The position numbers were made by a program, and so were the translations under genes. Below are positions 27,315 through 33,879 of a stretch of 64,000 nucleotides of DNA, piece by piece (the stretch's first letter is position 1; every line of letters starts with the position of its first letter). The notes below the pieces were generated by a model. It did not search any database, was not told where the DNA came from, and saw only the letters and a program-made list of their open reading frames with translations. Source of the DNA: Paraglaciecola arctica BSs20135 (GTDB taxonomy: Bacteria; Pseudomonadota; Gammaproteobacteria; Enterobacterales; Alteromonadaceae); contig NZ_BAEO01000056.1 in assembly GCF_000314995.1 (NCBI RefSeq), positions 1-64,000 of the forward strand, in the 5' to 3' direction.

Positions 27315-28139
27315 TTAGCTCAGTAATGACAAGGCAGATTGCGGTCTTTGGTTGGCTTGACTTAATACCGACAAAGACGCCTGCTGAATTATCTGATTTC
27401 TGGTCAATTCAGCCGTTTCAACAGCAAAATCAGTATCACGTATACGTGAACGAGCACCTGCAATGTTCTCAGATATATTGCTCAAGTTACGAATAGTAGA
27501 TTGAAAACGGTTTTGCAAGGCCCCTAAATCGGCTCGTGCACCACCTATAGCTGAAATGGCTTTATCTATCGCAGTTAACGCTCCCGATGCCCCTGCAGTA
27601 GTAGCAACAGTTGTATCAGCTAGACTTAGACCTGAAGCGCCAAAACCACCGGTTCGCTGTAGAGAGACAGTGATGTTCTGCCCGCCATTTGCTCCAACCA
27701 AAAAAGTAGAAGAATAAGTTCCATTTAATAGTTCGGTATTAGCAAACTGAGTATCAGAGGCGATCCTGCTGATTTCATTTTTTAATGCCTTGACTTCTTT
27801 CTGCAACGCGTTGCGGTCAGCAGACGAGTTGATACCATTTTGCGATTGCACTGCTAAAGTACGAATACGTTGTAATGAAGTAGTCACTTCACCTAACGCA
27901 CCTTCCGCTGTTTGCGTAAGTGAAATAGCATCATTGGCATTTCGAACGGCTTGATTCAAACCTTGAACTTGTGTGGTTAAACGGTCTGAGATCTGCAAAC
28001 CAGCGGCATCATCTGCGGCACGATTTATCCTAAAACCTGAAGACAATCTTTCGAAAGATGTATTCAAAGATTGCCCTGAACTAAACAGCTGGCGCTGAGC
28101 ATTCAAAGACGAAACATTTGTATTAACAAATAAACTCAT
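27315..28139 (-). CDS. Flagellin 1
   Basis: The frame is open to 28259, but the flagellin start is the ATG at 28139 (MSLFVNTNVSSLNAQRQLF), with AGGAGG 6 bases upstream; this gives 274 residues, like the other three. The N-terminal D0/D1 part (LSSGFRINRAADDAAGLQIS) and the C-terminal part (RSRIRDTDFAVETAELTR, IIQQASLSVLSQANQRPQSA) are conserved; the centre is short and rich in Ser, Thr and Gly. Such exposed residues are the expected O-glycosylation sites. A strong sigma-28 promoter lies at 28314-28340. It belongs with flagellin 4 by sequence (SLNAQR, LTRNQ). Confidence 0.96.
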   Translation of the reverse strand: MSLFVNTNVSSLNAQRQLFSSGQSLNTSFERLSSGFRINRAADDAAGLQISDRLTTQVQGLNQAVRNANDAISLTQTAEGALGEVTTSLQRIRTLAVQSQNGINSSADRNALQKEVKALKNEISRIASDTQFANTELLNGTYSSTFLVGANGGQNITVSLQRTGGFGASGLSLADTTVATTAGASGALTAIDKAISAIGGARADLGALQNRFQSTIRNLSNISENIAGARSRIRDTDFAVETAELTRNQIIQQASLSVLSQANQRPQSALSLLS

Positions 28140-28204
28140 AAAAACCTCCTGAAAACTCACCACACGCCGATAACGTGTTTGTACCAGTAAGTTTGCCTCA
28201 AATT

Positions 28205-28234
28205 TGACGGTCAAGAACCTCTTCTTGGCCGTCA
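28205..28234 (-). promoter_or_regulatory. Hairpin in the flagellin 1 5' untranslated leader
   Basis: TGACGG-x-CAAGAA and TTCTTG-x-CCGTCA form a 12-pair stem with one mismatch and a 4-base loop. It sits in the predicted 167-base leader between the sigma-28 start point and the flagellin 1 ATG, where it could affect stability or translation of the mRNA. Confidence 0.55.
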
Positions 28235-28313
28235 CCTCACTTACCTCCATTAGCGGCACCTCTACCGCTAAAAGAGACTAAAAGTGATCAATTAGACCAC
28301 CCCTCGACTAACG

Positions 28314-28340
28314 TTATCGACCCTCACTAGAGAAACTTTA
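28314..28340 (-). promoter_or_regulatory. Sigma-28 (FliA) promoter of flagellin 1
   Basis: Read on the minus strand: TAAAGTTT, 11 bases, GTCGATAA. The -35 box is an exact match to the FliA consensus and the -10 box matches 7 of 8 bases of GCCGATAA with ideal spacing. Start of transcription is expected near 28307. Confidence 0.85.
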
Positions 28341-28670
28341 GTTTTTTTTACGTTTTTATTTTGGCAGCTCAATCGGGGCTATTTAATTGGACTCAATGAT
28401 ATAAATAATATTGCTGCTTTTGGTCTTCACCCTATTTCAATATTGATTGTCAGCCAACCAAGAAATAACAGAACATTTAGGTAAGAGTATTATTTTGTGC
28501 TGCATTTTCGCTGCTTGAAAAGAAATATCCATTTCTGCATAGCGACGTATTGCCTAAAAACGACAGAGGCTTGCTGATCGACTGAAGCTCTCTGAGAGAA
28601 CAATTATTCATACGGATTGGTATTAACAGGAATGAGTATTACAACTGCGGAAAAATGTAGAAATAAATTT
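28341..28670. other. Flagellin intergenic DNA, no gene seen
   Basis: These 330 bases upstream of the flagellin 1 promoter hold no convincing frame, tRNA or strong stem. The right end borders a plus-strand sigma-54 match. Confidence 0.4.
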
Positions 28671-28686
28671 TGGCACGCTACATGCT
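28671..28686 (+). promoter_or_regulatory. Sigma-54 promoter match, plus strand, opposite to the flagellins
   Basis: TGGCAC, then ATGCT, with exactly 10 bases between the GG and GC pairs, fits the -24/-12 consensus. It points right, toward the 3' end of flagellin 2, with no plus-strand protein gene within 4 kb. It agrees with the site at 30141-30156 in 14 of 16 positions. A transcript would begin near 28698. Confidence 0.55.
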
Positions 28687-28697
28687 TTAGTAATTGG

Positions 28698-28901
28698 GAT
28701 AGCTGACTAGTTGTGAAAACATTAAGTCGCTAATGAAAAAAGGCCGGGGAAAAAACCCTTTCAGGTGTCCCCGACCAACTTGCTCACGTTAGGAGATGGA
28801 GCAAATAAGGTTTCTGTCCGACTGGCAGGGTTAGAAGAGCTGAATACTGGCCTCTCAACCAAACTTCTACACTCTCGGTCTTGTTAGTCGGCGTTTTAAT
28901 T
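28698..28901 (+). ncRNA. Candidate small RNA A between flagellins 1 and 2
   Basis: Proposed from the plus-strand sigma-54 site at 28671 to an inverted repeat CCGACT (28818-28823) / AGTCGG (28886-28891) followed by CGTTTTAATTT, with an inner TAGAAG/CTTCTA pair. The span includes hairpins with AGGAG in a 13-base loop. No frame codes for protein. The end is less certain than for candidate B. Confidence 0.3.
28735..28806 (-). repeat. Hairpin-plus-terminator module, copy 1
   Basis: Read on the minus strand: TTGCTC, 13-base loop with CTCCTAACG, GAGCAA (28780-28804), then a GGTCGGGGA/TCCCCGGCC stem (28742-28776) and a run of T. This is a Rho-independent terminator with a second hairpin just before it. 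Copy 2 lies 249 bases to the right. The loop can pair over 11 bases with the ribosome-binding site of flagellin 3. Confidence 0.7.
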
Positions 28902-28983
28902 TACACATCTAAGATGTAAACCAAAACAGAAATTTTGTTTGTACCGCAAGGCTTGCATACAATGCGCCTTAGGCTGTTTGTTT

Positions 28984-29055
28984 AAAAAAGGCCGGGGCAA
29001 AACCTTTTACAAGGCGTCCCCGACCAACTTGCTCACGTTAGGAGTTGGAGCAAAC
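28984..29055 (-). repeat. Hairpin-plus-terminator module, copy 2 (flagellin 2 terminator)
   Basis: Same layout as copy 1: stem TTGCTC/GAGCAA at 29029-29053 and GC-rich stem GGCCGGGG (28990-28997) with TCCCCGACC (29017-29025), followed on the minus strand by six T. It is about 165 bases after the flagellin 2 stop and is probably its main terminator. Confidence 0.75.
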
Positions 29056-29063
29056 TTGGTACT

Positions 29064-29094
29064 GGCTATGGTACAAACTCAGATCAACCATAGC
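29064..29094. repeat. 8-bp inverted repeat in the flagellin 2 3' region
   Basis: GCTATGGT (29064-29071) and ACCATAGC (29087-29094) are exact inverted repeats around a 15-base loop. It lies between the flagellin 2 stop and its terminator, so it would form a hairpin in the 3' untranslated region. Confidence 0.5.
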
Positions 29095-29217
29095 TTATAA
29101 ATAGCGCCCTCCCTAGCATAACATAGCAACAATCCATCATTGCTTTTTTAGGGCAAAGCCCCGGGTGGCCTCTCATTTCCTACCCTCTAGATTTTTTACT
29201 TTTACCTTACCAACTGA

Positions 29218-30042
29218 CTAACCCAACAACTGCAATGTGGCTTGTGGACGCTGATTCGCCTGCCCTAATACCGTAATACTCGCTTGTTGAATGATCTGCC
29301 AGCGGGTTAATTCTGCCGTTTCTACGGCAAAGTCTGTATCCCGAATACGACTTCTTGCCGCTGATACATTTTCAGAAATATTACTTAAATTTCTGATCGT
29401 TGACTGAAAACGATTTTGTAGCGCACCTAAATCCGCGCGCTGGGCATCGACAATCGAAATCGCTTCCGATATTGCTGTCATTGCTGCCGAGGCCTGTGCT
29501 TCAGTCAGTACAGAAGTATCAGCTACAAATAATCCAGAAGCTCCAAATCCACCGCTTCGCTCAACATTGACATTGATAGTTTGCCCCGCGTTAGCACCTA
29601 CCAAAAATGCCGATGAAAATACGCCATCTAATACGTTCACCCCGCCAAATTGCGTTGTGGATGCAATACGACTCATTTCATTCTTCAATGCTGTCACTTC
29701 TTTTTGTAATGCGACCCTGTCAGCAGATGAATTAATACCATTTTGAGACTGTATCGCTAACACCCGAATACGTTGTAATGCAGTAGTCGTTTCGGCTAAT
29801 GCCCCCTCAATAGTCTGCGACAAAGATATACCATCATTGGCGTTTCTAACGGCTTGATCTAGACCCAAAACCTGAGTCGTTAAGCGGTTTGAGATCTGTA
29901 GCCCTGCGGCATCATCTTTTGCGCTATTAATTCGAAAGCCCGACGATAATCGTTCAAAAGCCGTATTTAAATTATTATTCGAGGTAAACAACTGACGAGT
30001 TGCATTCAACGACGACACATTAGTATTAACAAATAAACTCAT
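29218..30042 (-). CDS. Flagellin 2
   Basis: A 274-residue flagellin with SLNATRQLFTSNNNLNTAFE near the start and LTRWQIIQQASITVLGQANQ near the end. It pairs with flagellin 3 (these two share SLNATR, LTRW and a VDAQRADLGALQNRF segment) and differs from flagellins 1 and 4. The ribosome-binding site is GGTTAGGAGA. No clear sigma-28 or minus-strand sigma-54 promoter was found upstream; a hairpin sits in the leader at 30061-30093. Confidence 0.96.
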   Translation of the reverse strand: MSLFVNTNVSSLNATRQLFTSNNNLNTAFERLSSGFRINSAKDDAAGLQISNRLTTQVLGLDQAVRNANDGISLSQTIEGALAETTTALQRIRVLAIQSQNGINSSADRVALQKEVTALKNEMSRIASTTQFGGVNVLDGVFSSAFLVGANAGQTINVNVERSGGFGASGLFVADTSVLTEAQASAAMTAISEAISIVDAQRADLGALQNRFQSTIRNLSNISENVSAARSRIRDTDFAVETAELTRWQIIQQASITVLGQANQRPQATLQLLG

Positions 30043-30060
30043 TTTTCTCTCCTAACCGTA

Positions 30061-30093
30061 CACTGACTTTTATTTTTGTTTTTAATGTCAGTG
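30061..30093 (-). promoter_or_regulatory. Leader hairpin upstream of flagellin 2
   Basis: CACTGAC (30061-30067) and GTCAGTG (30087-30093) are exact 7-bp inverted repeats with an AT-rich 19-base loop, ending about 18 bases upstream of the flagellin 2 ATG. The stem lies close to the GGTTAGGAGA ribosome-binding site. Confidence 0.45.
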
Positions 30094-30140
30094 ATATTCT
30101 GATATTGCTAAAATTATAATTGACATATTTTGTGCGTAAT

Positions 30141-30156
30141 TGGCACGCCATATGCT
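30141..30156 (+). promoter_or_regulatory. Sigma-54 promoter match, plus strand, upstream of candidate small RNA B
   Basis: TGGCAC and ATGCT with exactly 10 bases between GG and GC. It reads away from flagellin 2 and toward the 3' end of flagellin 3. Start expected near 30167. No plus-strand protein gene follows; a plus-strand terminator does, at 30421-30468. Confidence 0.6.
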
Positions 30157-30328
30157 GTATATCAATTGCTAGCTGGTACCCTGGTTAGCATTTTTGTTGA
30201 GTGTTAGATACACAAAAAACAAATGCAAAAAGTGTGAGCTTATGCTCTAGCTGACAGACAGAATTGATGGCCTAAACCTCAATACCTCACTACCTCCTGG
30301 CGTCTGTTCTGTCTGTTAGCGATTTAAC

Positions 30329-30345
30329 AAAAAAAGCCTCGGCTT
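30329..30345 (-). terminator. Possible flagellin 3 terminator
   Basis: On the minus strand AAGCC-GA-GGCTT is followed by seven T. The stem is short (5 bp), so efficiency may be modest. It lies about 235 bases after the flagellin 3 stop, inside the region of candidate RNA B on the other strand. Confidence 0.5.
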
Positions 30346-30420
30346 AATTTGCTAAACCTAATAAATCTCACCCTAAAACTTGTTGTAACGTGTTGATAAT
30401 ATTTAATAATATAAATCCCT

Positions 30421-30468
30421 CGGTCGGTTGCAGCCTGTCCCCACAATTTGCAATTCGACCGTTTTTTG
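30421..30468 (+). terminator. Plus-strand Rho-independent terminator
   Basis: CGGTCG (30421-30426) pairs with CGACCG (30456-30461) and TTGCA with TGCAA inside it; TTTTTTG follows. The direction is plus, although all flagellin genes here are minus, so it implies a plus-strand transcript. Confidence 0.65.
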
Positions 30469-30580
30469 TTTATCTACCTGGCTATATATTCTAGATAAAT
30501 AGCGACTATCCTCGTATTCTTAGTTGCAGCCTGCCCCCGCAATTGCTCAACAATATTGCACATAATTAGTCTCTATTTAA

Positions 30581-31408
30581 TTAACCTTGTAATAACTGTA
30601 ATGCTGCTTGTGGCCGCTGATTAGCTTGTCCTAACACAGTAATACTAGCTTGCTGAATGATCTGCCAGCGGGTCAACTCTGCCGTTTCAACGGCAAAATC
30701 AGTATCACGTATACGGCTTCTTGCCGCTGAGACATTTTCAGAAATATTACTTAAATTCCTGATAGTGGATTGAAAACGGTTTTGTAGCGCACCTAAATCC
30801 GCGCGCTGGGCATCAACAATTGAGATAGCTTCGGTTACAGCTGTCATGGCGGCCGATGCTTGTGCTTCTGTTAGTACAGATGCATCTGCCACAAATAATC
30901 CAGAAGCACCAAAACCTCCGGCTCGCTGAACATTGACACTAATGGTTTGACCTGCGTTAGCGCCTACCAAAAAAGCTGATGAAAATATGCCGTCTAAGAC
31001 GTTCACACCACCAAATTGTGATGTGGAGGCAATTCGACTCATCTCATTCTTCAATGCCGTCACTTCTTTTTGCAGTGCAACCCTGTCTGCAGAAGAGTTA
31101 ATGCCATTTTGAGATTGTATCGCCAACACCCGTATTCTTTGTAAAGCGGATGTAGTTTCGGCGAGTGCGCCTTCTATAGTTTGAGACAAAGAAATACCAT
31201 CGTTAGCATTTCTAACAGCTTGGTCTAAACCCAGAATTTGTGTGGTAAGACGGTTGGATATTTGTAAGCCTGCAGCATCGTCTTTCGCATTATTGATACG
31301 AAAACCAGATGACAAGCGTTCAAACGCGGTACTTAAATTATTGTTCGACGTAAACAACTGACGAGTTGCATTCAACGACGACACATTCGTGTTAACGAAT
31401 AAGCTCAT
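30581..31408 (-). CDS. Flagellin 3
   Basis: A 275-residue flagellin nearly identical to flagellin 2 in both ends and most of the middle, pointing to a recent duplication. Conserved ends: SLNATRQLFTSNNNLSTAFE and LTRWQIIQQASITVLGQANQ. The ribosome-binding site lies in CGTTAGGAGAT, fully complementary to the loop of the module at 28780-28804. A possible sigma-28 promoter is at 31561-31588. Confidence 0.96.
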   Translation of the reverse strand: MSLFVNTNVSSLNATRQLFTSNNNLSTAFERLSSGFRINNAKDDAAGLQISNRLTTQILGLDQAVRNANDGISLSQTIEGALAETTSALQRIRVLAIQSQNGINSSADRVALQKEVTALKNEMSRIASTSQFGGVNVLDGIFSSAFLVGANAGQTISVNVQRAGGFGASGLFVADASVLTEAQASAAMTAVTEAISIVDAQRADLGALQNRFQSTIRNLSNISENVSAARSRIRDTDFAVETAELTRWQIIQQASITVLGQANQRPQAALQLLQG

Positions 31409-31560
31409 TTTAAATCTCCTAACGATTTTTTTGTAAACACCACCCGGCTATTTTTATTATTAGTTGCCTTGATGGTTACAGAGCCTTTCTTTTATTATTA
31501 TTCAGCTTCTGTAAAGGCGTTCGCTTATATTTTTATTAGATGCGTAACGTCTATGTACAT

Positions 31561-31588
31561 GTATCGTGCTTTGATTAAAAATTCTTTA
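31561..31588 (-). promoter_or_regulatory. Possible sigma-28 promoter of flagellin 3
   Basis: On the minus strand TAAAGAAT, 12 bases, CACGATAC. The -35 box keeps TAAAG; the -10 box matches 5 of 8 consensus bases and spacing is one longer than ideal. It would give a leader of about 150 bases. Confidence 0.45.
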
Positions 31589-31642
31589 GGAGAAAAACAA
31601 ACTACTTTTTTAATTTCTTATATTTCAAATAGTTAGACAACG

Positions 31643-31668
31643 AAAAAAGCCGGAGAAATTCTCCGGCT
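31643..31668 (-). terminator. Rho-independent terminator of flagellin 4
   Basis: AGCCGGAGAA (31648-31657) and TTCTCCGGCT (31659-31668) are exact inverted repeats; on the minus strand six T follow. It leaves a 160-base 3' untranslated region after the flagellin 4 stop. Confidence 0.85.
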
Positions 31669-31829
31669 GAGCTCTTTTTCATTAGAGAGAGTGAGCGAAA
31701 CTCTCAACTGTTCGGTTCTTATCAACCCAGTGCACTACCTCCTGGCTTCTAAGTCCCTAAACAGAAGAAGGGTCTCGAAACCTAGGCCAATCGAAGGTTA
31801 GTCTGAATAAATGACTAACCCAGCAAAGA

Positions 31830-32654
31830 TTAACCTAGTAAAGATAGAGCCGATTGTGGACGCTGATTTGCCTGACTTAATACTGTCAAACTAGCCTGTT
31901 GAATAATCTGGTTACGGGTTAATTCCGCAGTTTCAGAGGCAAAATCAGTATCTTTGATCCGGCTTCTTGCGCCAGAAACATTCTCAGAAATGTTGGTCAA
32001 GTTACGAATTGTTGATTGGAAACGGTTTTGTAATGCACCTAAATCGGCACGTACACCACCAACAGCAGAGATGGCTGTTGTAATAGCCGTAAGAGCTGCT
32101 GACGCACCGCCTACAGTAGATACATCAGTTGTGTTCACGCCTAAACCAGATGAACCGTATCCCTGCGATCTTTCCAAATTAACAGAAATATTCTGACCAC
32201 CATTAGCTCCTACTAAGAACTTAGCTGAATAGCTACCATCCAAAATATTTAAATTTCCGAACTGTGAATCAGTTGATATACGAGTAATTTCAGTTTTAAG
32301 GGCTGACACCTCTTTCTGCAACGCAACACGGTCAGCAGATGAGTTGATACCATTTTGGGATTGTACTGCAAGTGTACGGATACGTTGCAGTGATGTAGTT
32401 ACTTCGCCTAACGCGCCCTCAGCTGTTTGCACTAATGAAATAGCATCATTAGCGTTACGTGCTGCTTGGTTAAGGCCTTGTATTTGGGTAGTTAATCTGT
32501 CAGTGATCTGCAAACCTGCAGCATCATCAGCCGCACGGTTAATACGGAAACCTGAAGACAAACGTTCAAAAGACGTATTTAAAGATTGCGCTGAATTGAA
32601 CAAATTACGTTGCGCGTTTAATGATGATACATTGGTATTTACGAATAAACCCAT
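31830..32654 (-). CDS. Flagellin 4
   Basis: A 274-residue flagellin starting MGLFVNTNVSSLNAQRNLFN and ending RSRIKDTDFASETAELTRNQ, then IIQQASLTVLSQANQRPQSA. It belongs with flagellin 1. The middle keeps VGANGGQNISVNLERSQGYG. It is the flagellin nearest the hook-junction genes and has its own sigma-28 promoter and terminator. The site TAGGAGAAAAACC precedes the ATG. Confidence 0.96.
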   Translation of the reverse strand: MGLFVNTNVSSLNAQRNLFNSAQSLNTSFERLSSGFRINRAADDAAGLQITDRLTTQIQGLNQAARNANDAISLVQTAEGALGEVTTSLQRIRTLAVQSQNGINSSADRVALQKEVSALKTEITRISTDSQFGNLNILDGSYSAKFLVGANGGQNISVNLERSQGYGSSGLGVNTTDVSTVGGASAALTAITTAISAVGGVRADLGALQNRFQSTIRNLTNISENVSGARSRIKDTDFASETAELTRNQIIQQASLTVLSQANQRPQSALSLLG

Positions 32655-32791
32655 GGTTTTTCTCCTACACTCTCAGTCCAGACGATGCTGGCGACTGAAT
32701 AATTCTTATAATTATTCAGCTGGTTAATTAACACTAATAGAGTAACGATTTTGTATTTAAAAAATCATTACTACTGGCTCTCTCACAGATT

Positions 32792-32818
32792 GTATCGACC
32801 CATTTAAAATTCCCTTTA
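32792..32818 (-). promoter_or_regulatory. Probable sigma-28 promoter of flagellin 4
   Basis: Minus strand: TAAAGGGA, 11 bases, GTCGATAC. TAAAG and CGATA are conserved and the spacing is ideal for FliA. Start near 32785, giving a leader of about 130 bases. Confidence 0.65.
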
Positions 32819-32844
32819 ACAAGAATTTGCCATTTTTCTCATTA

Positions 32845-32862
32845 GCGGCAAAATTTTGCCGC
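32845..32862. promoter_or_regulatory. 18-bp perfect palindrome GCGGCAAAATTTTGCCGC
   Basis: A fully symmetric site between two divergent genes, flagellin 4 (minus) and the sialidase-like gene (plus, starting 32923). It could be a regulator's operator, or a hairpin in the flagellin 4 upstream region. No T-run follows on either strand that would make a strong terminator. Confidence 0.5.
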
Positions 32863-32922
32863 CTTTGCATTTAGTTTTCACTTGAGTTTCAATGGGTTAA
32901 ATTAGATAAAAAAGTTTTTAAT

Positions 32923-33879
32923 ATGCAGCTAAATTGGTTAAAAAAGATTGGAAATAAGGCAGTTCACAATGCTTTTGTAGATTTATGTGAGTTTAATCAA
33001 CAATTATTTTGCTGCTATAGAGAAGCAAAAAATCACATTAGTGCTGAAGCTGGAATTTGTATTCTTACTCTCAATAAAGAAGGTAAAGTATGTAATATAA
33101 ATCGACTTAAAATGGCTAATGTGGATCTTCGTGATCCTAAGTTAAGTATCACCCCTGATGGTCGTCTGTTACTCATCGCCTATGCACGGAAAACTAATCA
33201 TAACAATGGCACCTTGTCCGTAAGAAATTTATGTTGGGTATCTCAAACAGGGCATAGTTGGTCATCCCATAGAGAATTTGCAGCAAAAGGAGGCTGGTTG
33301 TGGCGAGTGAGATGGCAACAAGATATTGCCTATGGTTTTGCTTATAGCAAAAAGAACAATACCATCCATTTGTATTCTGGCGATCCTAGGCGTAGCTTCC
33401 ATTGCCACCAGCCCAATGCCCTTAGTTTACAAAAACATAATAAGGGTTACCCTAACGAGAGCGATTTGTTGTTTGAAGACGATAACGCTTACGCAATTGT
33501 TAGGAGAGATGCAGATAGTTATTCAGCACAGTTAGGTACAAGTGGTTACCCCTACAAAAAATGGCAGTGGCTTGATCTTGGCTTATATATTGGCGGGCCT
33601 GTCATGCTAAAAATCGCACCAAAGGTTGCCATAGTAGCGGGTAGGATAATAAAAAAAGGAAAGCTGGTAACGGGTTTAATGCAACTAAATTTATCTAATG
33701 GCAAATTATTTGAGTTAGGAATATTACCTTCGGCTGGCGACAATAGTTACCCTGGTTTAGTACTTGATGGGCAAATACTTTATGTCAGTTATTATTCATC
33801 ACATCAAGATAACAAAAGTAGCGTATATTTAGCGCAACTAGATCTCAGTTTACTTATAAACAAAGATGAACTGGCTTAG
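32923..33879 (+). CDS. Sialidase-like (BNR/Asp-box) six-bladed beta-propeller protein
   Basis: This 318-residue protein is the only plus-strand gene between the flagellins and flgL. It shows the repeating pattern of the exo-sialidase fold: QLFCCYREAKNHIS (place of the first Arg of the arginine triad), DLRDPKLSITPDGRLLLIAY, YAIVRRDADSYSAQLGTSGY (place of the second Arg, ending in an Asp-box-like turn), GPVMLKIAPKVAIVAGRI, and DNSYPGLVLDGQILYVSYYS, the usual final-blade motif. No signal peptide is visible. Asp-boxes are degenerate. It might bind or cleave the nonulosonic acid of flagellin, but catalytic residues cannot be confirmed by eye. Confidence 0.55.
   Translation: MQLNWLKKIGNKAVHNAFVDLCEFNQQLFCCYREAKNHISAEAGICILTLNKEGKVCNINRLKMANVDLRDPKLSITPDGRLLLIAYARKTNHNNGTLSVRNLCWVSQTGHSWSSHREFAAKGGWLWRVRWQQDIAYGFAYSKKNNTIHLYSGDPRRSFHCHQPNALSLQKHNKGYPNESDLLFEDDNAYAIVRRDADSYSAQLGTSGYPYKKWQWLDLGLYIGGPVMLKIAPKVAIVAGRIIKKGKLVTGLMQLNLSNGKLFELGILPSAGDNSYPGLVLDGQILYVSYYSSHQDNKSSVYLAQLDLSLLINKDELA

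Follow-up and report, generated by a model that had tools for sequence, protein, structure and literature searches.

A conserved RNA gene with a sigma-54-type promoter box in the flagellin cluster of Alteromonadaceae and its predicted flagellin mRNA partners

In many polar flagella, several flagellins are arranged in a fixed pattern. Rhizobial trans-sRNAs carry an anti-Shine-Dalgarno (anti-SD) motif, CCUCCUCCC, in hairpin loops. In Shewanella, sequential flagellin promoters have been proposed, and an unknown transcriptional and posttranscriptional mechanism has been hypothesised to limit flaA once flaB production starts (PMC6299084). In Campylobacter jejuni, RpoN and FliA integrate the sRNAs FlmE (CJnc230) and FlmR (CJnc170) into the flagellar cascade, where they tune flagellar genes; FlmE arises largely by processing of the flgE mRNA, and its targets of repression are flgM and Cj1387c (PMC11187230). 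The E. coli sRNAs UhpU, MotR, FliX and FlgO depend on sigma-28 and affect flagellin levels and the number of flagella (PMC10578931). Outside the flagellar system, the repressor sRNA ChiX of E. coli and Salmonella is titrated by a pairing site in the chb mRNA, by which the chitoporin mRNA is freed (PMC4098024). 

We analysed a 64,000-nucleotide stretch of DNA from Paraglaciecola arctica BSs20135 (contig NZ_BAEO01000056.1, positions 1 to 64,000), hereafter the window, which holds a flagellin cluster with a putative small RNA gene, RNA B. Like the rhizobial trans-sRNAs, RNA B displays an anti-SD motif in a hairpin loop; unlike them, it lacks CCUCCUCCC and has instead CUACCUCCUGGC, ACCUC repeats and a dedicated partner site. 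As with FlmE and FlmR, two sRNAs would tune flagellar genes within one cascade, but RNA B, unlike FlmE, is headed by a sigma-54-type box of its own within the flagellin cluster and has flagellin mRNAs as predicted partners. A flagellar sigma factor would control sRNAs acting on flagellin, as it does for UhpU, MotR, FliX and FlgO; whereas those are UTR-derived and use sigma-28, RNA B has a gene of its own, preceded by a sigma-54-type box. As for ChiX and chb, a decoy site is proposed in another mRNA of the same pathway; here, however, target and decoy belong to flagellin paralogues, and it is a 3'UTR that holds the decoy. Among the literature matches listed, we found no Alteromonadaceae flagellin sRNA of such a kind, no combination of a sigma-54 sRNA gene in a flagellin cluster with paralogue-specific SD loops and a 3'UTR decoy, and no matching case for FlaX. 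We have filed RNA B as a new sRNA family, an SD-blocking sRNA with an mRNA decoy, in which both the blocking and the decoy action are inferred. If true, the sigma-54 sRNA pair and the SD-imitating site in a flagellin 3'UTR would provide, in a related group, a concrete mechanism of the kind hypothesised for Shewanella, one found from sequence alone and open to point-mutation tests.

RNA B lies on the plus strand and comprises the following elements.

30140..30156 (+), sigma-54-type -24/-12 box of RNA B, TTGGCACGCCATATGCT
30167..30467 (+), proposed RNA B transcript, both ends inferred, supported by the fold and the limits of the DNA-search match
30167..30190 (+), 5' hairpin TGCTAGCTGGTACCCTGGTTAGCA, right at the proposed start
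30236..30320 (+), conserved core of RNA B, modelled as R1
30236-30247 (+), small hairpin GAGC..GCTC, part of the core
30250-30272 / 30299-30320 (+), long stem, part of the core
30273..30298 (+), exposed loop UAAACCUCAAUACCUCACUACCUCCU with three ACCUC
30290-30301 (+), pairing core CUACCUCCUGGC of the loop
30421..30467 (+), terminator-like hairpin CGGTCG...CGACCG followed by six T, read from the sequence

The box reads TTGGCAC-GCCAT-ATGCT, with 1 mismatch against TGGCAC-N5-TTGCW. Taken alone it is not significant: scanning the window with up to 2 mismatches gave 48 sites, against 40.1 +/- 6.6 expected, and we therefore rejected a single sigma-54 box as proof. Conservation, rather than the box by itself, settles the matter. 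A box with at most 2 substitutions occurs upstream of the RNA B core in 90/90 loci, compared with 178/3331 random 150-nt windows (5.3%), and a strict box pattern in 81/90 loci, compared with 42/3331 random 150-nt windows of the same loci. The pattern expected of a sigma-54-dependent gene, a -24/-12 box with GG and GC at the right spacing, is thus met in all 90, and loss of the box in close relatives, which would have counted against the sequence-only reading that first pointed out the site, did not happen. The conserved box is observed; transcription from it and dependence on RpoN are inferred. RpoN, FliA and a FleQ/FlrA-type regulator are encoded in the genome. On these grounds of conservation we regard 30140-30467 (+) as confirmed as a conserved RNA gene of Alteromonadaceae, its transcription and function remaining inferences.

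We placed the start 12 nt past the C of the -12 GC and the end at the T run. No plus-strand open reading frame of at least 60 aa overlaps 30141-30468, as had been claimed, and the conserved pattern is one of paired stems; on these grounds coding on this strand was rejected. In an alignment of 20 loci we found the box, the largely conserved 5' hairpin, a GAGC..GCTC-type hairpin and the long stem with its near-invariant loop. The terminator proposed earlier is present at 30421-30467 with its six T but proved less constant: a TTGCAGCCTG-type core lies downstream, within 330 nt of the loop, in 14/20 aligned loci, and the terminator type of the window was not found in the other 6/20. Inside the terminator, GTTGCAGCCTGYCCCCRCAATT at 30427-30448 (+) occurs again 96 nt downstream at 30523-30544 (+), near the flagellin 3 stop.

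In a DNA search of 60 genomes, the window's own included, the RNA B region was found in many genomes of the same genus. The match in G005 spans query 98-425, corresponding to window 30140-30467, that is, from the box to the T run, and five further diverged matches, in G002, G006, G007, G008 and G014, begin at query 98 too. A stretch matching query 479-515 was found in G055, of another family (E 5.7e-5). The covariance search that had been suggested as a check was run with a model built from 21 cores (alignment A2), under strict filters by which weak matches are lost, and recovered RNA B in 85/295 genomes of the family and 21/52 genera. The order sample gave 15/394 genomes and the class sample 2/369, all of them in the window's family, so that neither sample yielded a match in any genome outside Alteromonadaceae. 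Records with the loop motif, among the matches listed, came from Paraglaciecola, Alteromonas, Glaciecola, Aliiglaciecola, Aestuariibacter, Bowmanella, Lacimicrobium, Agaribacter, Opacimonas, Marisediminitalea, Salinimonas and Ningiella. Of 112 stretches, 80 were listed, and 13 of these belong to unrelated groups, for example actinobacteria, probably by chance. A dRNA-seq study of Alteromonas macleodii Te101 reports 127 chromosomal sRNAs (PMC5864184), among which transcripts of RNA B or its companion RNA A may be present if that strain carries B.

For the locus counts, we took the flagellin clusters from the window's own genome and from 89 others that had a model match and re-scored them, which gave 92 matches from 90 sources. 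Two matches, a second copy in L144 and a weak one at L100:6517, were left out of the 90-locus counts. The loci represent one per species, yet are not independent by descent. L144 (G170) has its two RNA B copies about 1.4 kb apart in one cluster and has no decoy site, as described below, in the flagellin 3'UTRs examined. The weak second match, L100:6517-6593 (+), has an E-value of 0.0014 and no sigma-54 box; it covers that locus's decoy site, so that the antisense of the site region may form a hairpin.

The predicted fold of 30167-30468 has an energy of -89.5 kcal/mol (z = -7.4), which 0/100 shuffles equalled. The 13-base stem described earlier is found where it had been placed, with halves CTGACAGACAGAA and TTCTGTCTGTTAG at 30251-30263 and 30307-30319, and the loop region holds ACCTCCTG; the loop itself is longer than had been implied, with 26 unpaired nucleotides (unpaired probability ~1.0) and three ACCUC. 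Contrary to the earlier description, the predicted fold places the last G of ACCTCCTG in a pair. From a MAFFT alignment of 64 cores, made without fitting to the covariance model, RNAalifold predicted 18 pairs. In this subset, both sides have changed in 13/18 pairs, and 97.0% of cells are paired. The 64 loci were hand-picked from the 90, leaving out near-duplicates and also some diverged loci (L135, L138, L143, L154, L155), and the covariation and loop analysis was therefore repeated on all 90. Over the 90 cores (86 distinct), both sides have changed in 15/18 pairs and 96.9% of cells are paired; 0/500 shuffles attain any of five covariation measures. The last part of the loop is near-invariant across the 90 loci. 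The covarying hairpin is shown by computation.

RNA B does not correspond to a described family. No Rfam model exceeds its gathering threshold at RNA B, the only such match in the window being a tRNA; of 7 matches up to E = 10 within 28200-32950, all below gathering, just one, Thr_leader on the minus strand (24 bits against a threshold of 55), lies over RNA B. As no Rfam family reaches threshold, we rejected RNA B as a member of a known one. A CsrA-decoy RNA of the CsrB/RsmZ type would carry several GGA motifs in loops. There are 0 GGA in 30167-30467, and this identity was rejected as well; the test concerns RNA B and not RNA A. As regards possible dependence on Hfq, RNA B has a U-rich 3' end.

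The strongest predicted partner of the loop, which the sequence-only reading had missed, is in the 3'UTR of flagellin 4.

31830..32654 (-), flagellin 4, 274 aa, whose mRNA bears the proposed decoy (ORF, Pfam)
32792-32818 (-), sigma-28-like box of flagellin 4 (loose pattern)
31733..31746 (-), decoy or target site GCCAGGAGGTAGTG in the flagellin-4 3'UTR, complementary to the RNA B loop

The site emerged from the list of repeats as a second CACTACCTCCTGGC at 31733, where the minus strand reads GCCAGGAGGUAGUG; the 3'UTR carries GCCAGGAGGUAG, complementary to the loop. Within the genome, CCAGGAGGTAGTG occurs in exactly two places, the RNA B loop and this site. The predicted duplex has an energy of -32.5 kcal/mol, as low as which 0/200 shuffles came. 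Against this stands the folding predicted for the 3'UTR of the window, in which part of the site is engaged in pairing (mean unpaired 0.41). The complementarity is conserved. The fetched DNA covered one or more flagellin 3'UTRs in 89 loci; in 78 of these a site pairs with the locus's own loop core at 11/12 positions or better, and in 72 at 12/12, whereas mononucleotide shuffles of the 3'UTRs gave 2.15 and 0 loci, respectively. Sites fall 15-87 nt past the stop codon. Of the cells in the 78 sites that depart from Watson-Crick pairing, 23 are wobbles and 6 are broken; each of the five wobble changes that the mRNA side allows is seen. In 72 loci the site is opposite to the sRNA strand, and in 6 loci, with clusters arranged otherwise, it is on the sRNA strand; the site thus tracks the strand of the flagellin mRNA and not that of the sRNA. 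Since it follows the flagellin strand in these six clusters too, a simple repeat was rejected as the origin of the second CACTACCTCCTGGC.

Eleven of the 89 loci lack a decoy site. The DNA of L029, L034, L148 and L159 ends before the expected place, and L117 has one flagellin 3'UTR without a site before its DNA ends; L091, L130, L137 and L146 have only degenerate forms, and L144 and L154 none. In family genomes without RNA B, 0/18 reach 11/12 in the flagellin 3'UTRs of the fetched loci. These negatives derive from 22 genomes, two of which had no flagellin, one (G004) has RNA B and one (G020) a degraded RNA B; the control covers only flagellin genes in fetched loci, and just three of the 18 are in the window's genus. 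In G020, of the same genus, RNA B is degraded (24.3 bits), with most of the last two repeats gone and the seed missing, and no decoy site is present. Decoy complementarity is therefore absent in the checked genomes in which RNA B is absent or broken. G009, also of the same genus and without a model match, has GCCAGGAAGAGU 48 nt past a flagellin stop, which may be a remnant of a decoy site. What a decoy of the ChiX/chb type requires, a better-matching second site in an mRNA of the pathway that is conserved with the sRNA, is met, while decoy action itself is inferred.

The second proposed partner is the ribosome-binding site of flagellin 1.

27315..28139 (-), flagellin 1, 274 aa, proposed repressed target (ORF, Pfam)
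28314-28340 (-), sigma-28-like box of flagellin 1 (loose pattern)
28144..28151 (-), flagellin 1 ribosome-binding site CAGGAGGT, 8 contiguous bases paired with the RNA B loop

Flagellin 1 has a CAGGAGGU-type ribosome-binding site, as had been guessed, and its leader forms a predicted duplex of -22.9 kcal/mol with the loop (1/200 shuffles as low). Exactly one gene has GGAGGU within 22 nt before a flagellin-type start in 76/90 loci, none does in 14 and two in 0; the stop of this gene lies 1.4-5.1 kb upstream of the loop in 75/76. The GGAGGU leaders of the 76 loci pair with the loop of their own genome over 8-11 contiguous bases, compared with 8/276 other flagellin-type leaders that pair over 8 or more, the latter set including FlgL and other flagellin-like tblastn matches. 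The earlier suggestion of a sigma-54-driven RNA of about 300 nt able to pair with CAGGAGGT is supported by the conserved box, hairpin and loop and by these 76/90 leaders, although transcription has not been shown. A trans-acting SD-blocking sRNA should present a conserved, accessible seed to the ribosome-binding site of its target. RNA B does so for flagellin 1, though SD sites are themselves constrained, and the companion RNA A does so for flagellin 4; repression is inferred. An ACCUCC loop pairs with any GGAGGU SD, so that the flagellin-1 pairing is only partly established, supportive and not decisive; it is the weakest part of our reading because GGAGGU is also simply a good SD and the sRNA-negative genome G074 has a flagellin with it. 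In the window, a sigma-28-like pattern precedes flagellins 1 and 4 and not flagellins 2 and 3. Across loci, such a box is found for 75/76 GGAGGU-leader genes, but 158/251 other flagellin-type leaders, again a set with FlgL and further flagellin-like tblastn matches in it, have it too, and the loose pattern is not specific.

Upstream of RNA B on the same strand, at 28670-28900 (+), is a second conserved sigma-54 RNA, RNA A, whose match to the flagellin-4 leader the sequence-only reading had missed and whose transcription and function are likewise inferred.

28670..28686 (+), sigma-54-type box of RNA A (box scan, conservation)
28697..28900 (+), companion RNA A, ends inferred, with an SD-mimic hairpin, then a partner-loop hairpin and a short T run
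28864-28880 (+), RNA A loop pairing with the flagellin-4 leader
32662..32678 (-), flagellin-4 leader GACTGAGAGTGTAGGAG, complementary to the RNA A loop over 17 positions, 2 of them wobble

The RNA A loop motif is found in 60/90 loci, with a box no more than 330 nt upstream in 59/60, and occurs in two or three copies in L035, L037, L038, L039, L100, L109, L110, L117 and L131. Its hairpin has 2/12 pairs double-changed (24 sequences). Loop and flagellin-4 leader match over at least 13 contiguous bases in 54/61 comparisons; both are present in 55 loci, and in the 52 pairs compared, 773/780 aligned cells are paired, with compensatory changes at positions 13, 14 and 15. The predicted duplex with the flagellin-4 leader reaches -33.8 kcal/mol (0/200 as low) and that with the flagellin-1 leader -23.5 kcal/mol (7/200 shuffles as low), indicating that the choice of partner by RNA A is not absolute. 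For RNA B, the loop gave -20.7 kcal/mol with the flagellin-4 leader (9/200 shuffles as low), and the two cross-pairings show that, by energy, pairing is not fully exclusive. Pfam confirms the four flagellins of the cluster together with FliS, FlaG, FliD and FlgK. A minus-strand terminator plus hairpin occurs twice in near-identical form, at 28736-28805 and, 249 nt away, at 28984-29054; read on the plus strand, the hairpin displays ACGUUAGGAGAUG or ACGUUAGGAGUUG, which come close to the SD of flagellins 2 and 3.

We favour, by a little more than indifference, a reading in which RNA B is a sigma-54 sRNA gating flagellin 1, the flagellin-4 mRNA is its decoy and RNA A gates flagellin 4. RNA B would be a trans-acting small RNA, dependent on sigma-54 and expressed together with the middle flagellar genes. 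The long hairpin would present the loop, three ACCUC repeats ending in CUACCUCCUGGC, and the loop would cover the ribosome-binding site of flagellin 1 and leave that flagellin untranslated, while RNA A would block the leader of flagellin 4. From the sigma-54-type boxes on the sRNAs and the sigma-28-like boxes on flagellins 1 and 4, the sRNAs should precede the rise of the flagellin mRNAs, a timing based on the general flagellar hierarchy as given in PMC6299084. Once sigma-28 is freed, flagellin-4 mRNA would come to exceed RNA A and flagellin 4 would be translated; as this mRNA builds up, its 3'UTR, in which GCCAGGAGGUAG(UG) is a better match to the loop and an imitation of the flagellin 1 ribosome-binding site, would titrate RNA B and release flagellin 1. 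RNA A and RNA B may thereby set a threshold and the order or ratio of flagellins around hook completion. The conserved 3'UTR complementarity is observed; repression, titration and flagellin order are inferred from sequence alone. RNA pairing may be a means by which these bacteria time their flagellins or keep them in balance. As a broader and tentative proposal, which we would sooner doubt than rely on, Alteromonadaceae would use an RNA address system in which every class of flagellin ribosome-binding site is matched by a complementary hairpin loop of its own (RNA B for GGAGGU of flagellin 1, RNA A for GAGAGUGUAGGAG of flagellin 4 and perhaps, in some flagellin 3'UTRs, CUCCUAACGU loops for GUUAGGAGA of flagellins 2 and 3). 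The mRNA of one flagellin would act as a decoy and thereby release the next, and the order or composition of the subunits in the filament would be set after transcription.

The main rival is that RNA B acts on the flagellin-4 mRNA itself. The 3'UTR would then be a regulated target and not a decoy: RNA B would bind just past the stop and alter mRNA stability, both sRNAs would silence leaky sigma-28 transcripts of one flagellin until the hook is done, and flagellin 1 would be no target. This account draws on the 3'UTR match being longer and of lower duplex energy than the flagellin-1 match, on RNA A pairing with the leader of the same mRNA and on the sigma-54-type boxes that both RNAs have. It leaves unexplained why the site should take the form of a ribosome-binding site (AGGAGG), something not needed if the 3'UTR were merely a target, and why 76/90 loci keep one GGAGGU flagellin leader with 8-11 bases paired to the loop. 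We consider it unlikely, if still a serious possibility.

Improbable, in our judgement, is that RNA B is a general anti-Shine-Dalgarno RNA directed at many GGAGGU mRNAs, with the flagellin cluster merely housing the gene and a sponge. Three ACCUC repeats in a loop could indeed pair with many SD sites, but the gene, its promoter type and both partners are all found within the flagellin cluster. A search for CAGGAGGTA-N3..9-ATG also returned just two sites in the genome (G000:C24:28102 and G000:C44:133096) and four in three genomes; the test is weak, since the pattern misses the window's own flagellin-1 leader, CAGGAGGUUUUU, and the two sites could be additional targets of RNA B.

The alternative function suggested earlier, cis-antisense action on the 3' end of the convergent flagellin 3 mRNA, gained no specific support, and we hold it to be very improbable. 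The RNA B T run (30467) ends 113 nt from the flagellin 3 stop (30581), and flagellin 3 transcripts may run on; yet loci differ in how far the loop lies from the next flagellin stop, and it is the loop that is near-invariant, not the part adjoining flagellin 3. That the repeated CACTACCTCCTGGC is a DNA element, a protein site or recombination footprint between flagellin genes, is scarcely credible: its position between flagellin paralogues and its likeness to a direct repeat fit this view, but it is flagellin-sense in the 3'UTR in 78/78 loci with the site, its other copy is in the loop of a covarying RNA hairpin, and its departures are mostly G-U wobbles (23/29).

Returning to the flagellin-4 3'UTRs, several of them, for example in L042, L043, L046 and L048, have a second conserved hairpin, GAGAGU..ACUCUC. 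In these four loci it is followed by CUCCUAACGU..GAGCG, which could pair with GUUAGGAGA leaders. This third pairing, of CUCCUAACGU loops with GUUAGGAGA leaders, is exact in 4/19 aligned flagellin-4 3'UTRs.
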